From: a virus
Strand: one strand, 5' to 3'
IMG/VR virus record: IMGVR_UViG_3300003314_000006
Span: 1-28,878 of that record
Length of the DNA stretch: 28,878 nt
In this document: piece after piece, positions 10,014 through 27,447 of the stretch
Position numbering within the stretch: position 1 is the first letter of the stretch
Layout of the letters: every line of letters starts with the position of its first letter
The notes under the pieces: model-generated
Databases searched by the model: none
The model's input: the letters and a program-made list of their open reading frames with translations, nothing else
What the model was told of the DNA's origin: nothing
Program-made: the position numbers and the translations under genes

Positions 10014-10345
10014 ACCGTCAAGTTCGTTCTACGATTCATAGACTCGGTAACGAGGTAACGATCAAGACTCGATCGACGAGCGGATCTAACTCGTTCAATA
10101 ATCCACAGTCTACGTGGTCAGAGTCACACACCACTCAATGCGTTCGAACATATCCAAACCGTAACACTCAGTTCGAAAATCGAGGTGGGAGTTATAACGA
10201 AGATCGAGCGTTGTTCATCTTCGAGCGGGGAGAAGCTCCCGAGTCCGGTTCACGAATTGTGTATGACGGACAAGAGTACGAAGTAAAATCCCCGACGCCT
10301 TACGACACTCACGTTGCTATTTTCGGTGAACCTGTTTCGCAATAA
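10010..10345 (+). CDS. Head closure (stopper) protein
   Basis: 111 residues with an SH3-like beta pattern ending in GQEYEVKSPTPYDTHVAIFGEP. This is typical of SPP1 gp16-like stoppers that seal the filled head. It overlaps both neighbours (ATGA, TAATG). Family membership is inferred from pattern and position. Confidence 0.65.
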   Translation: MNRQVRSTIHRLGNEVTIKTRSTSGSNSFNNPQSTWSESHTTQCVRTYPNRNTQFENRGGSYNEDRALFIFERGEAPESGSRIVYDGQEYEVKSPTPYDTHVAIFGEPVSQ

Positions 10346-13300
10346 TGGTTAAAATAAAGGTAGATGTAAGCGGGATTGAGTCCACCCTCAATGAGATTGA
10401 ACGCGATCTCCATCGCGGTATGGAGAAGTCAACTGATAATCTCGTTGATAACGCGAGAGATCACGCTCGCAAGGTTATCTCTGAGGAGGACGCTATCTTC
10501 AATTCGGAAGTCTACGCAGGCTTTCGTGACGCTGAAACTCGCAATTCTACCTATACCGTTCGTGCGAAACTCTACAACAACGTAGAACACGCTGATGTTC
10601 TCGAGGAAGGAGCGAAATTTCCCGCAGAAGGCCCTCCAGTTGAAGCACTACTCCCTTGGGTAGTCCGAAAGATGAACTGGCGGCCTGATGGCGGCCTTGA
10701 CTTCGATAATGATGATGGCGGTCGGCCTGATTCATTTGACGATGATGATTCAGGTGGCGATGGTGAGGATACCTCCATTGACCGGAGTAGTCCTGATGAG
10801 GATAATCCTGAGAATTGGAACGATCTTTCTCGAGATTACTCCGAAGCGAAGGAGATTCCTGAAAACGCTATCCTGAAAAACACCTACGCTAACGCACCAG
10901 TTAGACGGTTTGATGATGGTATTTACTTCGGATGGAACGAAGACAAATACCAGATTCGACCGACCAGCTCAGGGTTCGAGCATTATACTCTCCGAAAAGG
11001 CGAGTATGAGTACGTCGGCACAACCGATAGTGCGAATTACTACGTTCCCGACGAAGCAGATCAAGTCTTAGGTTACAAACGAGCAACTGACGACGACTTC
11101 AACTACGACATTTACCGACCTCGAGACTTACCTACAGGGATCACTCAAGATTTCTATCGGAATGATTGGAACGATCTCGAAGACTTTGAGAATAAGGTTG
11201 GGCGTGAGCTTGCTTATCGAGACAACTACGGGATAATCCATGAGGGTGAAGTTCTCAAAGTCGATGACGATGGATCTGTTACACTCGTAGATAATGAGAC
11301 TAATCAAACAACAGAGTGGCTTCCCGATCTTAATCAAACTGAGATTGTAGCTGTTGAGACTGTTGACTTTGAGAAGAATAATCCCCTTTTCAATGTAGAA
11401 AAAGAAGACGTTCGAGTTGGTGAGAAAGTCTACGCGAGTAGTTCCAAATATCGAAGGCTCGAGATTTCTGAAAAGAAGGGAACTACTTTCATAGGGACAG
11501 ATGACAACGGATCTGCGTTCGAGCTTGAGTATGATCGGATCGTCAGCCGCCTTGAACACGGTCCGGTTTCAAACCGCATTGACGAGTGGGAGACTGGCGA
11601 TCGAGTCACGTTCTACGATGAAGATGACGATGAGTTCATTGACATAATCCTCACCGGCAATCGTGATTTCTCTGGTGAGAGGTTCGAAGCAATCCACCCT
11701 CAGACGAAAGATCCGATGGGAGAGATCCCACAGGCTCTATTCGTTGAGTGGGAATCAGCTCCCAACATTGACGAGACGAAGATCACACCGTCAATGCGGC
11801 GAGTCACTATCGGATCATCCGAAGTTGGCAAAGATGAGTTATCATACACAGACCAAGATGTAGTCCTGTATCACCCCATTGAGGGGGAGACGAGATCGGC
11901 AACGGTCACGTCCCCACCTTGGAATGATAACTATGAAGTAACTCTCTCAAACGGAGATGTAATCGACATTGACTCTGATGATTGGCAAATTCGCGCTGGT
12001 GTTGATTTCAAAACTCTCAGCGACACAGATCAAAAGAACGCTATAGCAGATCACTTTGAGAATAGTGTCGACATTTCTGGCGCAGATTCTGAGGATATAG
12101 ATTACTACAAGAAAGCTCTCAAGGATTCCATCCATGAAAATTATAGTGATGATGATAAGCTCGCTCAGACAGTCTTCAGCTTGACGGAAACTGCTGTAAA
12201 CGACAATCGAGCGCATGCTGCTAACACCGCATCCAATGATGGATGGTCGCTCCAGATGAAGCCGAAGCCCAATACCGATAGCAATATGCTGGTTCGAGAC
12301 TGGTATCAGACATTCGACCATGAATTTGGTCACGGATACAGTAAACCCACCGTAGGTGGGACAAGTGCTTACAGAAAAGATCCAAAGGAATACGACTTCT
12401 CTGGACCTTGGGGTAAGAAAGACGATCCAGACTACGATCACATGTATGTAGCCGATCTCCCCAAGTGGGAGTTCGGTTCAAACAGCCCTATGCATGGATA
12501 CAAAGAGATGTATATGTTCACCCCCGGCGATGGGAAGATGCAAATCTCTTATAATTCTGATGGGGATATTCAACTCGACTCTCGAAACTCAATGAATCCA
12601 TATGGGTTCGATGAGTGGGGAGATAGAGTGCGAGAAAAGGCGATAGCTGATGCAGAAGGTACAACTCTCGCTCAGAAGGAAATGTCCACTAACATCCGTG
12701 AGTTGGATGATAAGCAAGTCTTCGGTTCTATCGATGAGGACTTCGCTATTGATGAAGGCGATTACGTCGCTTTCGATGTTGATGGAGAGACTGTAATTCA
12801 CGAGTACACTGGTCGAGAGGGAATGTCTACTAACTTCAGTCAAAATTCTGATGAAGATGTTCCAACATCCGGGGAATCAGTCACTTTCGAAACCTTGGAT
12901 GGAGATTACAACTACTTCTACGTAGGAAGTGATGGAAATGTGTATGATACGGAATACACAGATAACGGAACTACAGTCCTGACAAAGAAGAATGACACCT
13001 TCATCGGGACGGCGACGATCTCGAACTACGACCCCTCCCTCAATGAGTTTCCCGACCTAACGGAGACTGAAAACATTGAGCGGATGCAAGAAGCCGCGAA
13101 TATGGCTTGGTGGTATCAGGCTATCCACATCGAACACGACACTTCTACGGACAAGGAGCGTTCAAAGGAAATCGTCCTCTCTGGTGGATACTCGTCCACT
13201 TACGCGGAAGAAGTTATGTCAACCTTCACTGAAGCGATAGCACATCCCGATCCGCCATATCAAGCTATGGAGGATTTAGAGATGATTATAGAACGGTATC

Positions 13301-13386
13301 CGTTCTTCATAGAGCAAGTGCTTAAGGAAAGAAAGCCCGTAAGTAATAGGGTGGAGCAGGAACTCAAGGAGGAAGGATTCCTATAA
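10345..13386 (+). CDS. Neck protein (HK97 gp10-like) fused to zincin-like domain
   Basis: 1013 residues where a 110-150 residue tail-completion protein is expected. Residues 1-112 match the HK97 gp10 type, including YNNVEHADVLEEGAKF and the ALLPWVVRKMNW end. A disordered Asp/Gly linker follows (about 113-160). Several beta, SH3-like units come next (starting near 285, 355, 414, 500), then a helical part. HEFGH at 659-663, after DWYQTFD, is an HExxH zinc-protease motif. A further insertion with beta units (about 800-885) precedes a terminal helical part with STYAEEVMSTFTEAIA (951-966), where E955, E956 or E963 could be the third zinc ligand. This resembles toxin-type zincins carried on phage structural proteins. 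The late stop overlaps the next ATG by 1 bp. Protease activity is predicted, not shown. Confidence 0.75.
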   Translation: MVKIKVDVSGIESTLNEIERDLHRGMEKSTDNLVDNARDHARKVISEEDAIFNSEVYAGFRDAETRNSTYTVRAKLYNNVEHADVLEEGAKFPAEGPPVEALLPWVVRKMNWRPDGGLDFDNDDGGRPDSFDDDDSGGDGEDTSIDRSSPDEDNPENWNDLSRDYSEAKEIPENAILKNTYANAPVRRFDDGIYFGWNEDKYQIRPTSSGFEHYTLRKGEYEYVGTTDSANYYVPDEADQVLGYKRATDDDFNYDIYRPRDLPTGITQDFYRNDWNDLEDFENKVGRELAYRDNYGIIHEGEVLKVDDDGSVTLVDNETNQTTEWLPDLNQTEIVAVETVDFEKNNPLFNVEKEDVRVGEKVYASSSKYRRLEISEKKGTTFIGTDDNGSAFELEYDRIVSRLEHGPVSNRIDEWETGDRVTFYDEDDDEFIDIILTGNRDFSGERFEAIHPQTKDPMGEIPQALFVEWESAPNIDETKITPSMRRVTIGSSEVGKDELSYTDQDVVLYHPIEGETRSATVTSPPWNDNYEVTLSNGDVIDIDSDDWQIRAGVDFKTLSDTDQKNAIADHFENSVDISGADSEDIDYYKKALKDSIHENYSDDDKLAQTVFSLTETAVNDNRAHAANTASNDGWSLQMKPKPNTDSNMLVRDWYQTFDHEFGHGYSKPTVGGTSAYRKDPKEYDFSGPWGKKDDPDYDHMYVADLPKWEFGSNSPMHGYKEMYMFTPGDGKMQISYNSDGDIQLDSRNSMNPYGFDEWGDRVREKAIADAEGTTLAQKEMSTNIRELDDKQVFGSIDEDFAIDEGDYVAFDVDGETVIHEYTGREGMSTNFSQNSDEDVPTSGESVTFETLDGDYNYFYVGSDGNVYDTEYTDNGTTVLTKKNDTFIGTATISNYDPSLNEFPDLTETENIERMQEAANMAWWYQAIHIEHDTSTDKERSKEIVLSGGYSSTYAEEVMSTFTEAIAHPDPPYQAMEDLEMIIERYPFFIEQVLKERKPVSNRVEQELKEEGFL

Positions 13387-15755: not shown

Positions 15756-16262
15756 ATGGCAAACGCACCTTCTACTGTTGATCGCGTTGAATCGGCTGCG
15801 AACATCACTCTCACCATCTCTAAGGGTGGCGAAGCAATTACACCCGGTGGAGATAGCGGTTCCGAAGCAACCAGTGATGAAGTTGGAGCTGAAATTCTCA
15901 AAGTCCCGATCTCCCGCCTTGACCGGACTAAGGATATTGAGATTTCCGAAATTCGAGAGTCTTCGCTAAAAGCAAACGGTTATTCAGTCACGTCGATCTC
16001 GTTCTCCGGTTCAATGATGTTCAAGGGCGAGCGTGTTCGTGGAGAAGATGGATCTCCAACTCACATTGAGGATCTTCTCTTTGACGAGAACGACGTTCCG
16101 AACCCGGTTTCCATCACTATTTCCCACGAACTCTCTGGCAAATCCGAGACGTTTCAGGACGTTCTCGTGACGAGCGATGCGTATGAGAGTCAGAACGAGT
16201 CTGAAACTGAGACTTCGTTCGACTGGATTGCGATGGACAAGGATACCAGTTACTCGGAATAA
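15756..16262 (+). CDS. Tail tube protein
   Basis: 168 residues directly after the sheath, the normal order in contractile tails. It is beta-rich with a Gly/Ser loop (about 24-40), the strand pair YSVTSISFSGSMMFKGER, and a C-terminal strand-helix segment. The product forms the inner tube for DNA passage. It ends the first long operon, followed by a non-coding spacer. Confidence 0.8.
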   Translation: MANAPSTVDRVESAANITLTISKGGEAITPGGDSGSEATSDEVGAEILKVPISRLDRTKDIEISEIRESSLKANGYSVTSISFSGSMMFKGERVRGEDGSPTHIEDLLFDENDVPNPVSITISHELSGKSETFQDVLVTSDAYESQNESETETSFDWIAMDKDTSYSE

Positions 16263-16499
16263 TAACCAACTAACAACCCCATCGTTGTGGTGGGAGAGCA
16301 TATAAGGTCTTTAAAGACTTAATTCGGTATCTTTAAGTATTTAGTTACCGTCTATAGAGTGTGTGCGGTCGTGTGCGGGAACGAGCGGCCGTAGTGTTTT
16401 ACTCTATTGTATATGCTTAGTAATTCAATTCATTGAGGGAGGGTACTGATACCCCGCCTCAATGAATTGAATCACACAACGTTTACATATTCTATTACT
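16263..16499 (+). promoter_or_regulatory. Regulatory spacer before the tail operon
   Basis: The largest non-coding gap right of 1646. In order: ACAAC/GTTGT stem (16273-16288), TATA-like CATATAAG (16299-16306), perfect palindrome GTCTTTAAAGAC (16307-16318), tandem GTGTGCGG repeats (16361-16378), then the large inverted repeat 16423-16472. The start codon at 16500 is 36 bp after the late element. It probably ends the head operon and starts the tail operon. Confidence 0.6.
16423..16472. repeat. 16-bp inverted repeat containing the late element twice
   Basis: Arms 16423-16438 and 16457-16472 are perfect 16-bp inverted copies (ATTCAATTCATTGAGG and complement). Inside, GGGTA (16441-16445) and TACCC (16450-16454) pair around CTGA, with only two mismatched positions between the inner and outer stems. 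CCCCGCCTCAATGAATTGAA (16452-16471) is identical over 20 bp to the complement of 879-898. Confidence 0.75.
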
Positions 16500-17009
16500 A
16501 TGACTGAAGAATCTGAGAACCCCGGCAGTGACGACGATGTGAATATTTCCCGACTTCGAAATATCGCTACTCAAGGGAAGCTGTATCGAGAGACGCTGGA
16601 AGTTACCTACTTCGGCGAAGACCTCGAGCTTCACCTCCAGCCTGTTATCTCTCAGCGATTCCTGCCTATCGCAGCGATGCTTGAGGATAAGATGGACATG
16701 GACGCTGATGAAGCGCAGGATCGTCTCGAGAATGAGAAGGAGGATGGAAGCATTGATCCTGCGAACTTCGACGAGGAGTTCGTTGTTATCATGTCGGAGT
16801 TGGCTATCCGTGGCATTGACTCTGAGAAGGGTGACGCGGAAGGTGAGACTGAGGAAGGTCTTCGAGAGATTTTCGGTATCTCGGATGAGGAAGACGAGAA
16901 CATCGGTCTGATCGGTGGGATTGTACTCGAGATCGCCGAACGTGTTCTCTCTATCTCGTCCGACGCGGAGAAGGCAGAATCCTTTCGCAGAGACGGGGGC
17001 AGCGAGTAG
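16500..17009 (+). CDS. Tail assembly chaperone, short form (gpG-like)
   Basis: 169 residues from ATG 16500. The open frame extends upstream to 16467, but that part lies in the operator, so this ATG is preferred. It lies between tube and tape measure, the fixed place of tail assembly chaperones. It has an N-terminal strand region (YRETLEVTYFGEDLELHLQPV) and then acidic helices. The next frame, shifted by +1 relative to this one, is open from 16915 and overlaps its end, suggesting a ribosomal frameshift to a longer form as in lambda G/GT. Chaperones coat the tape measure during tube assembly and are absent from virions. Confidence 0.75.
   Translation: MTEESENPGSDDDVNISRLRNIATQGKLYRETLEVTYFGEDLELHLQPVISQRFLPIAAMLEDKMDMDADEAQDRLENEKEDGSIDPANFDEEFVVIMSELAIRGIDSEKGDAEGETEEGLREIFGISDEEDENIGLIGGIVLEIAERVLSISSDAEKAESFRRDGGSE
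16995..17000 (+). other. Candidate programmed frameshift site
   Basis: GGGGGC lies three codons before the TAG at 17007 in the frame GAC GGG GGC AGC. A shift of -2 or +1 here joins ...RRDGG to AASSIIGMQSEMG in the next frame. The site resembles the G-rich -2 site I recall for phage Mu tail chaperone genes. Prediction only. Confidence 0.5.
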
Positions 17010-17019
17010 TATAATCGGG

Positions 17020-17280
17020 ATGCAGTCTGAGATGGGGATTGGTATCGTCGGCGAGGACCAGACCGACATAACCCCATTTCAGCGCCAAGTATTCGAAGCT
17101 GAGCAGGCGAGGAAGGCTCGGGCGAAGGAGAAGAAGATGGAGGAGGCCAAAGGTGGTGGCGGTGGACGACCGCGAAACTCTGCCGCTGGTGCTGGTGGAC
17201 CTACTAAATCGAGATCAGAGACTGTCCGGTACAATAGCGAAGGCGAGAGGGAAGACGACGATACGCTTGAAGTGATCTAA
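17020..17280 (+). CDS. Tail assembly chaperone, downstream part (T-like)
   Basis: 86 residues if read from ATG 17020, but the frame is open from 16915 and the ATG has no clear Shine-Dalgarno sequence, so it is more likely made as the C-terminal part of a frameshift fusion with the previous gene. Residues include a charged helix (QVFEAEQARKARAKEKKMEEAK), a Gly-rich linker and an acidic end. In other tailed viruses the T part recruits the tape measure. Its stop overlaps the tape-measure start (TAATG). Confidence 0.6.
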   Translation: MQSEMGIGIVGEDQTDITPFQRQVFEAEQARKARAKEKKMEEAKGGGGGRPRNSAAGAGGPTKSRSETVRYNSEGEREDDDTLEVI

Positions 17281-19310
17281 TGACTGTTAGTATTGACATT
17301 GACTTAGACGCCCTTGGCGCTAAGCAGGAGATCGGACAGCTCAAGCTCATGCTTGAGAGCCTGGACGATGACCTGAATATTGACTTCGATCTCGATGGCG
17401 ACATTGGGGACACTATTGACAAGCTCAGTGAGGCTATGGACGATCTTTCTGAGTCTTTCAACAGCGACCTCAATGAAACGATCGACCGCCTCGAGAGTCT
17501 GGAGTTTGATGATATTAGCGTCAAGCGTGGGTATGGTAATTCCGGTGGCGATACCGGGAGTGATAGCGGAGATCGACATGTCCCTTCCGCTCGGCAGTAT
17601 TTCTCTGGTGGACCTCTCAATGATGACGATGGGGGACAACCACTTCAGAGATCCCTTCAAAAATTCCATCGGAATATTGAGAGTATTTCAGACTTCAACG
17701 GTGTAGCCTCCCGCCTCAATGATTTCGAACGTACTGATCGGTTCAGTAGGATAAACAGTGATGTTCCTAATTGGACTGGTGATTACGACTTTGATTCTTC
17801 GTTCGAGGATCGTATAGATAGTTCTATATTTGACTCCTTTGATCGAAGCGAGGAGGAGATTAAATCGAGGATGGGGTATAGCCCTACTGAATCGATGAGT
17901 AGGATTAGAGGGACCAGTGATATGGATCTCCTATCTTGGGATGCGGATCAACCGTCCCCACTCTCTGATGAGCTGAGAAAAGTTTGGGGAGAGCCAGAGA
18001 ATACCGACCCCTTCAACTTCGGAGCTGATATTGGTCTTCCGGGGAAAAACAAGAATGGAAAAGGGTCTTTATCTAATCTTCCGAAAAAGTTCAAGAACAT
18101 CAGAACCGTCGTTGATGGACTGAGTAATTCAGTCAAACGGTTAATCCCGTCGATGAGTACGTGGATTAACCTCGTCGGTATGGCTGTTCCTGCTCTTGGT
18201 GCATTAGCTGTTCAAGCACTTGGAGTTGCATCAGCTATGGGTGCGATAGCTCTGGCTGGTGGAGCTATGATCGGCCTCGGTCTGCTCGGTCACGGAGATA
18301 CGATGGCTGAGTCCATGCGGAACGCAAAGCAGCAGATTTCCAATCTGAAGCAGAATCTGTTCGAGGAGTTCGAACCTGTTGCTGACATGTTCGCCCCGAT
18401 ACAAGAGGAGTTCTTCAATTTCATCCCGACGCAGATGGATGGGATTACTGGATCTCTGGAGGGTCTTCGGGTTTTCAAAGACGATATTTTCAGCCTATTC
18501 CGTGGCGGGACTCAATTTATTTCTGAGTTCATTGATGTTATCACTGAGAATGAATCGATAATCAGCGACCTCACAAAGACGTTCTCGAAGTTGATCGGGC
18601 AGAGTATTCTCGATTTCTTCGAGTGGTTACTCCAGTCCACAAGTGAGAATAAGCAAATGCTCATTGAGCTTGGGGGAATCCTCAAGACGGTCGCGAGTGC
18701 TATCTATAACGTCTTCATGATGGTTAGCCGTGCGATCATCATGCTCCGTCCGTTCTTCTCGATTCTATCATGGATTGGGAAGCTGATGAACAACTCTCTC
18801 ATTTCCGGTATGGTTGCGGTTGTCGCAGTCATGTATGTAGTCGCCTCGGCTATTGGAGGTATCATCTCGAGTATGACGGTATTAGCCTCAGTTCTTGGGA
18901 CTGGACTAATCCCGTTATTCAGTTCGATGTTCACCTACCTCTCGACATATATCTTCCAAACGTTAGCGGCGACTATGGCTAACTACGGTCTTGCTGCATC
19001 AATCGCCAACGTCGCTGCTGCTCTTGGAACTCTGTTGGCGATGACTGGAGTCGGACTTCTCCTTGCTGGTGGGGGTCTTGCTCTTGGTAAGATGATGGGG
19101 ATTGGTGATGTTCCTGGTGGTAAGGGAGCATCTTCCTCTATCGGAAATTGGAGTGGTGGTTCTGGTGGTGGAAAGACCGTGGTCAATGAAGGCGATACGG
19201 TGAACGTCGATATTGGAGACTCTGACACCGCTTCTATTGAGAAGTTCGCAGACATGCGTGGAAGTGGTGGTGATAGAGGGCCGATCGGCGGCAGTTACAC
19301 CAGCGACTGA
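17280..19310 (+). CDS. Tape measure protein
   Basis: 676 residues. The N-terminus is a coiled coil (about 10-80) with DALGAKQEIGQLKLMLESL typical of tape measures, followed by a long polar stretch. Hydrophobic Gly/Ala-rich segments (about 290-340 and 485-610) could cross the membrane during ejection. The C-terminus is Gly/Ser-rich. At the usual rise of about 0.15 nm per residue the tail would be near 100 nm. Encoded after the chaperones and before baseplate genes. T-rich bases follow. Confidence 0.9.
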   Translation: MTVSIDIDLDALGAKQEIGQLKLMLESLDDDLNIDFDLDGDIGDTIDKLSEAMDDLSESFNSDLNETIDRLESLEFDDISVKRGYGNSGGDTGSDSGDRHVPSARQYFSGGPLNDDDGGQPLQRSLQKFHRNIESISDFNGVASRLNDFERTDRFSRINSDVPNWTGDYDFDSSFEDRIDSSIFDSFDRSEEEIKSRMGYSPTESMSRIRGTSDMDLLSWDADQPSPLSDELRKVWGEPENTDPFNFGADIGLPGKNKNGKGSLSNLPKKFKNIRTVVDGLSNSVKRLIPSMSTWINLVGMAVPALGALAVQALGVASAMGAIALAGGAMIGLGLLGHGDTMAESMRNAKQQISNLKQNLFEEFEPVADMFAPIQEEFFNFIPTQMDGITGSLEGLRVFKDDIFSLFRGGTQFISEFIDVITENESIISDLTKTFSKLIGQSILDFFEWLLQSTSENKQMLIELGGILKTVASAIYNVFMMVSRAIIMLRPFFSILSWIGKLMNNSLISGMVAVVAVMYVVASAIGGIISSMTVLASVLGTGLIPLFSSMFTYLSTYIFQTLAATMANYGLAASIANVAAALGTLLAMTGVGLLLAGGGLALGKMMGIGDVPGGKGASSSIGNWSGGSGGGKTVVNEGDTVNVDIGDSDTASIEKFADMRGSGGDRGPIGGSYTSD

Positions 19311-26058: not shown

Positions 26059-27447
26059 ATGCCGACGATTGAATGGACTCGAGCAGATCTCCGTAGAGAC
26101 GAGACTAATAGTGGCTTCACCACCGACGAGCTTCACGGAGAAGACCTTACTCGAGGATACGAAACTGGAAGCCTCAACGACGGTCTGATCGCCTACTATC
26201 CGTTTGACAATGACGCTGATGACGGTTCTACGGCTATAGACTCTGCCCAAGACCATCATGGTCAGATCAACGGTGCTGTTCACGATACAGATAGTGTTGT
26301 TGGCGACACGTCGATGAGTTTCGACGGGACTGATGATTATATTGATTCAGGGAATAAAAATACTCCTACCCAAGTAACTGTTACATCTTGGGTTTATAGG
26401 TCGTCTACAGGAGTTGAGCATAGGGTTGTTGATTTTGGACATGACAGTAGTAATAATTATGGATTCCGTTTCGGCCCCACTAATAATGATTCAGTGAGGT
26501 TTGATTTCGGTGATGGATCATCATTTTATCAAAATAGTGGAGGGTCAATCGGGAGTGGACAGTGGAAATTTATTGCAGGAATATATAATTCTAATGGCGA
26601 TTGGTCTATTTATGTAGATGGTTCAAAAGTTAATAGTGGAAATAGTGGAAATGGATCAATTGCTGATGGAAGCCGACCTTTACGAATTGGATGTGCGTCA
26701 TATAGTACAACTGATTCTAATTTCGATGGAAAATTGGATGATGTGCGTATCTACAACAGGGCACTCTCCCAACCCGAGATCAAGGCACTCTACTCGCTCA
26801 CCGCACCGAGCGGTTCGCTCGTAGACGATGATCCAAGAGAGAACTTGGTAAGTCATTGGAAACTCGATGGTACGGCGGTAGACGCCGTAGGCTCTAACGA
26901 TGGCACTGTCAACGGCGCAACGGCTGTTGATGGCTTCTACAACCAGTGTTACTCGTTCGACGGGACTGATGACGAAATTTCAATTAGTGATGGATTGACA
27001 AATTATCCGTTAACTCTATCTTGGTATGCTAATTTCCATAGAAAAAATACTACTAACGAGTTAATTCACATAGGGTTCGATTATAGTAACAATAAAGGTG
27101 TCAATATAAAGGACGAGGACGGAAACATAGCAGTTTTAATTGGAGATACATGGAGTATTGGAAGTACCCAGAACATTGATCTCATAATCACCAATGAGTG
27201 GCATCATTATACCCTTATTGTAGATAGAAGTGGACAAGCAAGTTTATATAGAGATGCTGATTACATAGTAAGTGGAACTTCTGAAAGTAACTCTGGAATT
27301 ACATCTACATCTGAAATTTCACCAAACGGAGCTATAGATGGCAAAATTGACGACGTAAGAATCTACGACCGTGCTCTCACTGCGTTCGAGGTACAGCAAT
27401 TGTACGAATATGGCAAGCGAAAAATTCCGGAAGAAAGTAATCTATGA
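26059..27447 (+). CDS. Receptor-binding protein with two LamG domains
   Basis: 462 residues. After a 40-residue N-terminal segment come two concanavalin A-like LamG (Laminin_G_3) domains, about 43-246 and 262-452. Each begins with a GLIAYYPFD- or NLVSHWKLDG-like strand, contains YSFDGTDD or MSFDGTDDYI, and ends with DDVRIYNRAL or DDVRIYDRAL. Such domains bind glycans. The middle of each domain is AT-rich with unusual codons, while its edges match the rest of the genome, suggesting exchange of variable cores. The stop overlaps the next start by 4 bp. Confidence 0.85.
   Translation: MPTIEWTRADLRRDETNSGFTTDELHGEDLTRGYETGSLNDGLIAYYPFDNDADDGSTAIDSAQDHHGQINGAVHDTDSVVGDTSMSFDGTDDYIDSGNKNTPTQVTVTSWVYRSSTGVEHRVVDFGHDSSNNYGFRFGPTNNDSVRFDFGDGSSFYQNSGGSIGSGQWKFIAGIYNSNGDWSIYVDGSKVNSGNSGNGSIADGSRPLRIGCASYSTTDSNFDGKLDDVRIYNRALSQPEIKALYSLTAPSGSLVDDDPRENLVSHWKLDGTAVDAVGSNDGTVNGATAVDGFYNQCYSFDGTDDEISISDGLTNYPLTLSWYANFHRKNTTNELIHIGFDYSNNKGVNIKDEDGNIAVLIGDTWSIGSTQNIDLIITNEWHHYTLIVDRSGQASLYRDADYIVSGTSESNSGITSTSEISPNGAIDGKIDDVRIYDRALTAFEVQQLYEYGKRKIPEESNL

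Follow-up and report, generated by a model that had tools for sequence, protein, structure and literature searches.

A conserved TTT_CGC codon pair as the probable +1 frameshift site in the tail assembly chaperone genes of haloarchaeal myoviruses

We analyzed a 28,878-base virus record, hereafter called the window, of a haloarchaeal myovirus related to HF1, HF2, and HSTV-2. Between its tail tube and tape measure genes lie two overlapping frames that very probably yield two tail assembly chaperones, G and the fusion G-T, through a +1 ribosomal frameshift at a UUU_CGN site. Comparison of related sequences established the place of the switch between frames, the two frames themselves, their conservation, and the lack of a conserved start codon for the second frame.

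Gene order, overlapping frames, and relatives

The capsid block of the window shared approximately 75% nucleotide identity with 17 phage records over 19% of the query, and the sheath, tube, chaperone, and tape measure genes matched PHROG families. The kinship of the capsid and tail genes to those of HF1, HF2, and HSTV-2 makes the virus Hafunaviridae-like, a description that reflects gene matches and is not a formal taxonomic assignment. An unusually long open reading frame (ORF) of 1013 aa was observed in the head-tail junction region (10345–13386) and is likely an insertion or a fusion. Imperfect direct repeats of 46–57 nt, spaced by approximately 0.6–1.4 kb, were found in the tail-end genes from 26059–27447 to the end of the window, where they have the look of repeated domains.

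All features of the chaperone locus are on the plus strand. The tail tube gene (15756–16262; phrog_12452, E = 1.2e-68) is followed by ORF G (16500–17009; 169 aa; phrog_14268, tail assembly chaperone, E = 2.5e-56), which ends with the TAG codon at 17007–17009. A second frame, +1 or, equivalently, −2 relative to G, is open from 16912 to 17280, with 16912–17006 lying before the G stop, and ends at the ATG of the tape measure gene (17280–19310; phrog_14901, E = 1.3e-113). The T part, read in the +1 frame at 16984–17280 (phrog_12163, E = 2.2e-25), comprises 98 residues counted from a Phe that it shares with G, and a G-T fusion would have 259 residues. The coordinates and PHROG matches thus bear out the original prediction that two overlapping frames lie exactly between tube and tape measure, with the second frame open for 95 nt before the G stop.

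The openness of the second frame is in itself weak evidence, as the −1 frame is likewise open, for 118 nt before the same G stop. The overlap is nevertheless more than chance because the peptide encoded in the +1 frame is homologous in all 28 clusters of related sequences (see below) and phrog_12163 matches both frames. We therefore rejected the possibility of a chance open frame.

The assignment of the two frames to tail chaperones was based on their position between tube and tape measure and on homology to phrog_14268 and phrog_12163, whose names are annotations and not the outcome of function tests. Pfam yielded nothing for G or T. The fold predicted for G (pLDDT 79, pTM 0.75) aligned with modest scores to the HK97 tail chaperone 2ob9 (Z 5.4, rmsd 9.2, 91 residues aligned) and to YqbN 3klu (Z 5.1, rmsd 4.1, 92 residues aligned), the top rows of a second-look alignment. 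A Foldseek search of the PDB returned no significant match; the search of BFVD returned two good but unnamed matches followed by weak ones, some of which were named tail assembly chaperone. Taken together, annotations, PHROG matches, gene order, and relatives support a programmed frameshift that joins the tail chaperone frames of an archaeal virus, as had been predicted.

Homologues of ORF G were detected in 53 phage records (tblastn, E ≤ 0.01), all of them haloarchaeal viruses by name and host. Profile searches, with patterns placed in the part of G outside the overlap, yielded 48 loci in IMG/VR, two of which were also obtained by another search, and two loci on genome contigs (Halospeciosus flavus and Halorubrum halodurans). 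The collection comprised 68 sequences including the window. In 66 of these, the G stop was on the contig; the other two (L057 and L060), in which G runs off the contig, were dropped. Removal of 12 sequences identical to another over 250 nt left 54 distinct sequences, which fell into 28 clusters when the fused proteins were grouped at 85% identity. Cluster representatives were as little as 25% identical to one another; the clusters share ancestry, so counts over them are not independent.

The motif CCYCAATGNNTTGA, with at most one mismatch, occurs eight times in the window (at 103, 880, 1602, 4869, 11871, 16425, 16457, and 21430), compared with 0.33 copies expected and eight reached in 0 of 100 shuffles. 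Two of the copies make up a long inverted repeat (16408–16487) just before the gene start at 16500, possibly an operator or a leader hairpin. By eye, an inverted repeat of a different sequence was seen at the corresponding place in two relatives (L009 and L010). In addition, two 40-nt stretches (1594–1633 and 16449–16488), which are 78% alike and end approximately 12 nt before the gene starts at 1646 and 16500, perhaps reflect shared control of two transcription units.

The conserved TTT_CGC and the switch of frame

The proposed shift site is TTT_CGC at 16983–16988. TTT_CG was found in frame within 45 nt of the G stop in 64 of the 66 sequences, and the other two (L061 and L062) had TTT_CCG at the corresponding place. 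TTT_C was present in all 54 distinct sequences and all 28 clusters, and TTT_CG in 53 and 27 of them, respectively, with the codon after TTT being CGC (47 sequences), CGT (six), or CCG (one). A separate search using the T part alone gave a similar picture: of the 42 loci obtained, 40 had TTT_CG at the junction, including all five on contigs not seen before, while the remaining two were again the TTT_CCG contigs. The distance from the first T of TTT to the start of the G stop was 24 nt in 36 sequences, nine in 13, 42 in three, and six in two. The zero-frame tail thus varies in length across the 54 distinct sequences, while the +1 peptide from the shared Phe is conserved. Such a placing of UUU ahead of CGN, in the zero frame and within an overlap with a +1 frame, characterizes the UUU_CGN class of +1 sites.

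The use of TTT at this place is unlike that elsewhere. In genes predicted for the 28 cluster representatives by a simple pick of non-overlapping plus-strand ORFs of at least 100 aa, TTT accounted for 271 of 1457 other Phe codons. G has one other invariant Phe, residue 94, which was encoded by TTT in four of the 28 representatives, in contrast to 28 of 28 for the Phe of the shift site. Judging from these codon counts, the TTT is more than a conserved Phe.

The coding constraint changes frame at the same codon, as is typical of the UUU_CGN class. Upstream of TTT, variation falls on the third position of the G codons and most of the +1 translation lacks conservation; the three bases of TTT itself do not vary; and beyond it, variation falls on the third position of the +1 codons. 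The change-point score peaked at codons 0 and +1 (7.1) and was 7.0 at codon +2, compared with 2.9 for no shift. When the clusters were bootstrapped (n = 1000), the change point fell at codon +1 in 769 replicates, at +2 in 223, and at −2 in eight. Two relatives bracket the putative shift event independently of any model: the +1 frame becomes open 14 nt ahead of TTT in L058, where the G stop follows 6 nt after the first T, and 5 nt ahead of TTT in L061.

Alternative slip sites, directions, and starts

The original prediction placed the slip at GGGGGC (16995–17000), three codons before the stop. Its coordinates for this run and for the overlapping frames were correct, but the run is not conserved in the relatives. 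Of the 54 distinct sequences, 29 have GGGGGC between TTT and the stop, as do 16 of the 28 clusters; the other 25 sequences, including all HF1-like ones, lack it before the stop. The junction is better placed eight codons before the stop, at the conserved TTT_CGC, whose TTT_CG is 12 bases upstream of the G-run in the window. In the HF1-like viruses, the sequence reads AAG TTT CGC AGA TAG, with the stop ahead of any G-run; there and in L058 and L059, G ends 6–9 nt after TTT, before a G-run would be read. In the +1 frame, the codons that separate TTTC from the G-run are conserved throughout the family, so this frame is entered upstream of the run, and GGGGGC itself belongs there to conserved T-G-A codons, which account for its presence.

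On these grounds GGGGGC was rejected as the shared slip site. A shift there, be it −2 or +1 (the latter with the Gly tRNA moving from GGG to GGG), is very unlikely as the explanation, even though the run is in frame in the window, allows full +1 re-pairing there, and precedes the stop in over half of the distinct sequences. A GGG-to-GGG slip in the window is possible as a minor event. The tail chaperone genes of phage Mu are joined by a −2 frameshift at a G-run. The present family resembles Mu in the net frame and in having a G-run in some members, and differs from it in that the run is not conserved and re-pairing favors +1.

The original prediction had also left open whether the shift is −2 or +1. 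These give the same frame, and public records propose −2, close to where G ends: among the 17 of the 53 matching phage records whose annotations we compared, nine carry a joined coding sequence (CDS) noted as a "putative programmed translational -2 frameshift" (L004, L008, L011, L012, L013, L016, L020, L021, and L022), one carries a joined CDS without a note, and seven carry two separate CDS. The −2 notes conflict with the comparative support for +1. All 54 distinct sequences allow full re-pairing after a +1 slip at UUU_C (UUU to UUC). For −2, in the stretch that begins 12 nt ahead of TTT and extends as far as the stop, full re-pairing is possible in only six, three of them at AAG and three at a G-run, and never at the conserved TTT site. 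This comparison, which follows codon-anticodon logic and is not a measurement, argues for the +1 direction; we rejected −2, which we consider the least credible of the alternatives weighed here and a very improbable one. HSTV-2 was likewise called a very likely +1 case in the consulted part of a 2016 review (PMC5009743).

A third alternative is that T is initiated independently as a separate protein and that no fusion is made. In line with this, seven of the 17 records annotate two CDS, and the claim that the second frame lacks a convincing start of its own was only partly right, as GTG 16915, TTG 16921, GTG 16942, and ATG 17020 (17020–17022) are present in the window; ATG 17020 or GTG 16915 could serve. 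In the family, however, no start position is conserved. From the opening of the +1 frame to 45 nt past the site, 11 of the 54 sequences (six of the 28 clusters) have no ATG, GTG, or TTG, and, apart from the window and L009, in which the positions differ, no sequence has an ATG within 45 nt downstream of the site. Moreover, the conserved segment F-A-E-T-G-A-A-S lies upstream of 17020. An independent start of T was therefore rejected and is, in our estimation, about as improbable as a shift at the G-run.

With +1 at UUU_CGN as the preferred reading, the locus very probably works as follows. The majority of ribosomes would read G and stop at 17007. In a minority, with UUU 16983 in the P site and CGC in the A site, the tRNA-Phe on UUU would move one base forward and re-pair with UUC; GCA GAG ACG GGG would then be read in the +1 frame up to the stop ending at 17280, giving the 259-residue fusion. 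In haloarchaea, one tRNA-Phe would read both UUU and UUC. The same has been stated for the amalgavirus motif (PMC5052127). For the window, the tryptic junction peptide expected from +1 at UUU_C is AESFAETGAASSIIGMQSEMGIGIVGEDQTDITPFQR. By analogy with lambda gpG and gpGT, whose division of labor is described in PMC5009743, the role of G would be to coat the tape measure protein and that of the T part to recruit tube subunits. We infer that the shift occurs, how efficient it is, that the tRNA moves in the +1 direction, and that the chaperones have these roles.

No consistent RNA structure that could act as a stimulator was found across the 28 clusters: mean z was −0.33, −0.55, and −0.38 downstream and −0.60 upstream, and for these four choices of stretch z was below −2 in three, four, one, and four clusters. 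RNA structure was accordingly rejected as a stimulator. A rare or slow A-site codon, the stimulator that has been proposed in influenza, is not evident from viral usage either, because these loci use CGC more than any other Arg codon (528 of 1989). Away from the site, the representatives have TTT in six of 49 Phe-CGN pairs, three of which lie in the window (at 10522, 19880, and 23882), compared with 264 of 1405 other Phe codons. In-frame TTT_CGN is thus present elsewhere and not significantly depleted (p-value 0.35), so the hexamer may be only weakly slippery or need context. By eye, a GGAG-like motif was seen upstream of the site in the window and in HF1-like lineages; it is missing in L012, L027, and L058.

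Known systems and implications

The phenomenon and the motif have already been published for a sister group. Dyall-Smith et al. 2020 (PMC7230728) propose, for six HF1-group genomes, a +1 shift at a TTT-CGC that lies within 15 bp of perfect conservation, cite the influenza and amalgavirus work, and call for experiments. The HF1 group has the same gene pair, TTT_CGC, an inferred +1 shift, and proteins homologous to those of the window; its six genomes end G at AGA TAG, whereas in the window, which represents another lineage, the zero-frame tail is 24 nt long and the site is followed by a G-run. The call of very likely +1 for HSTV-2 is repeated in the corresponding passage of a 2021 review of archaeal recoding (PMC8211752), and in the passages of Liu et al. 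2021 (PMC8651126) that were covered the word frameshift appears only in a reference. Our literature search, which covered listings, the starts of abstracts, and some passages, found no family-wide analysis of and no experiment on this frameshift. What is added here is the lineage of the window, the Mincapvirus, Laminvirus, and Minorvirus records, and the genome and metagenome contigs, together with comparative grounds for excluding both GGGGGC and −2 as the mechanism that these viruses share.

According to the parts of PMC3498833 and PMC5052127 consulted, influenza A PA-X and the plant amalgaviruses have UUU in the P site, then CGN, and an overlapping +1 frame, as here, and the window also has the codon preceding the influenza site, UCC. 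The systems differ in that this is an archaeal DNA virus and in that CGC is common in its viral genes, as opposed to CGU, which is rare in influenza hosts. In the lambda-type G/G-T systems, which in the source text consulted include those of HVTV-1, HCTV-1, 2, and 5, and HATV-2, the order tube, chaperones, tape measure is the same as here, and two products share an N-terminus, as proposed for the window. These lambda-type and haloarchaeal siphovirus systems, unlike the window, shift by −1, with the downstream product of HATV-2 being in the −1 frame. Among five records of other haloarchaeal tailed viruses, in which the tail gene positions were not known beforehand, the chaperone pair was found only in HATV-2, annotated as −1.

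The results suggest that the −2 notes of public Hafunaviridae records be revised. The site is short, fixed over 28 clusters, and testable by one synonymous change. According to the 2021 review, a single archaeal programmed −1 frameshift and no more had been reported, and other archaeal events were unconfirmed (PMC8211752). If functional, the present site would be a worked archaeal +1 site, UUU_CGN would act in archaea as it does in viruses of eukaryotes, and the idea of a rare A-site codon could be put to the test with a codon that the viral genes use commonly. We give even chances to the broader proposal that the archaeal ribosome obeys UUU_CGN by itself, the influenza and amalgavirus +1 site having become fixed throughout a family of archaeal DNA viruses with neither a rare A-site codon nor an RNA structure. 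If that is true, slippage would be a property of P-site UUU_C beside A-site CGN and not of tRNA scarcity, and would have been met independently in two domains of life.
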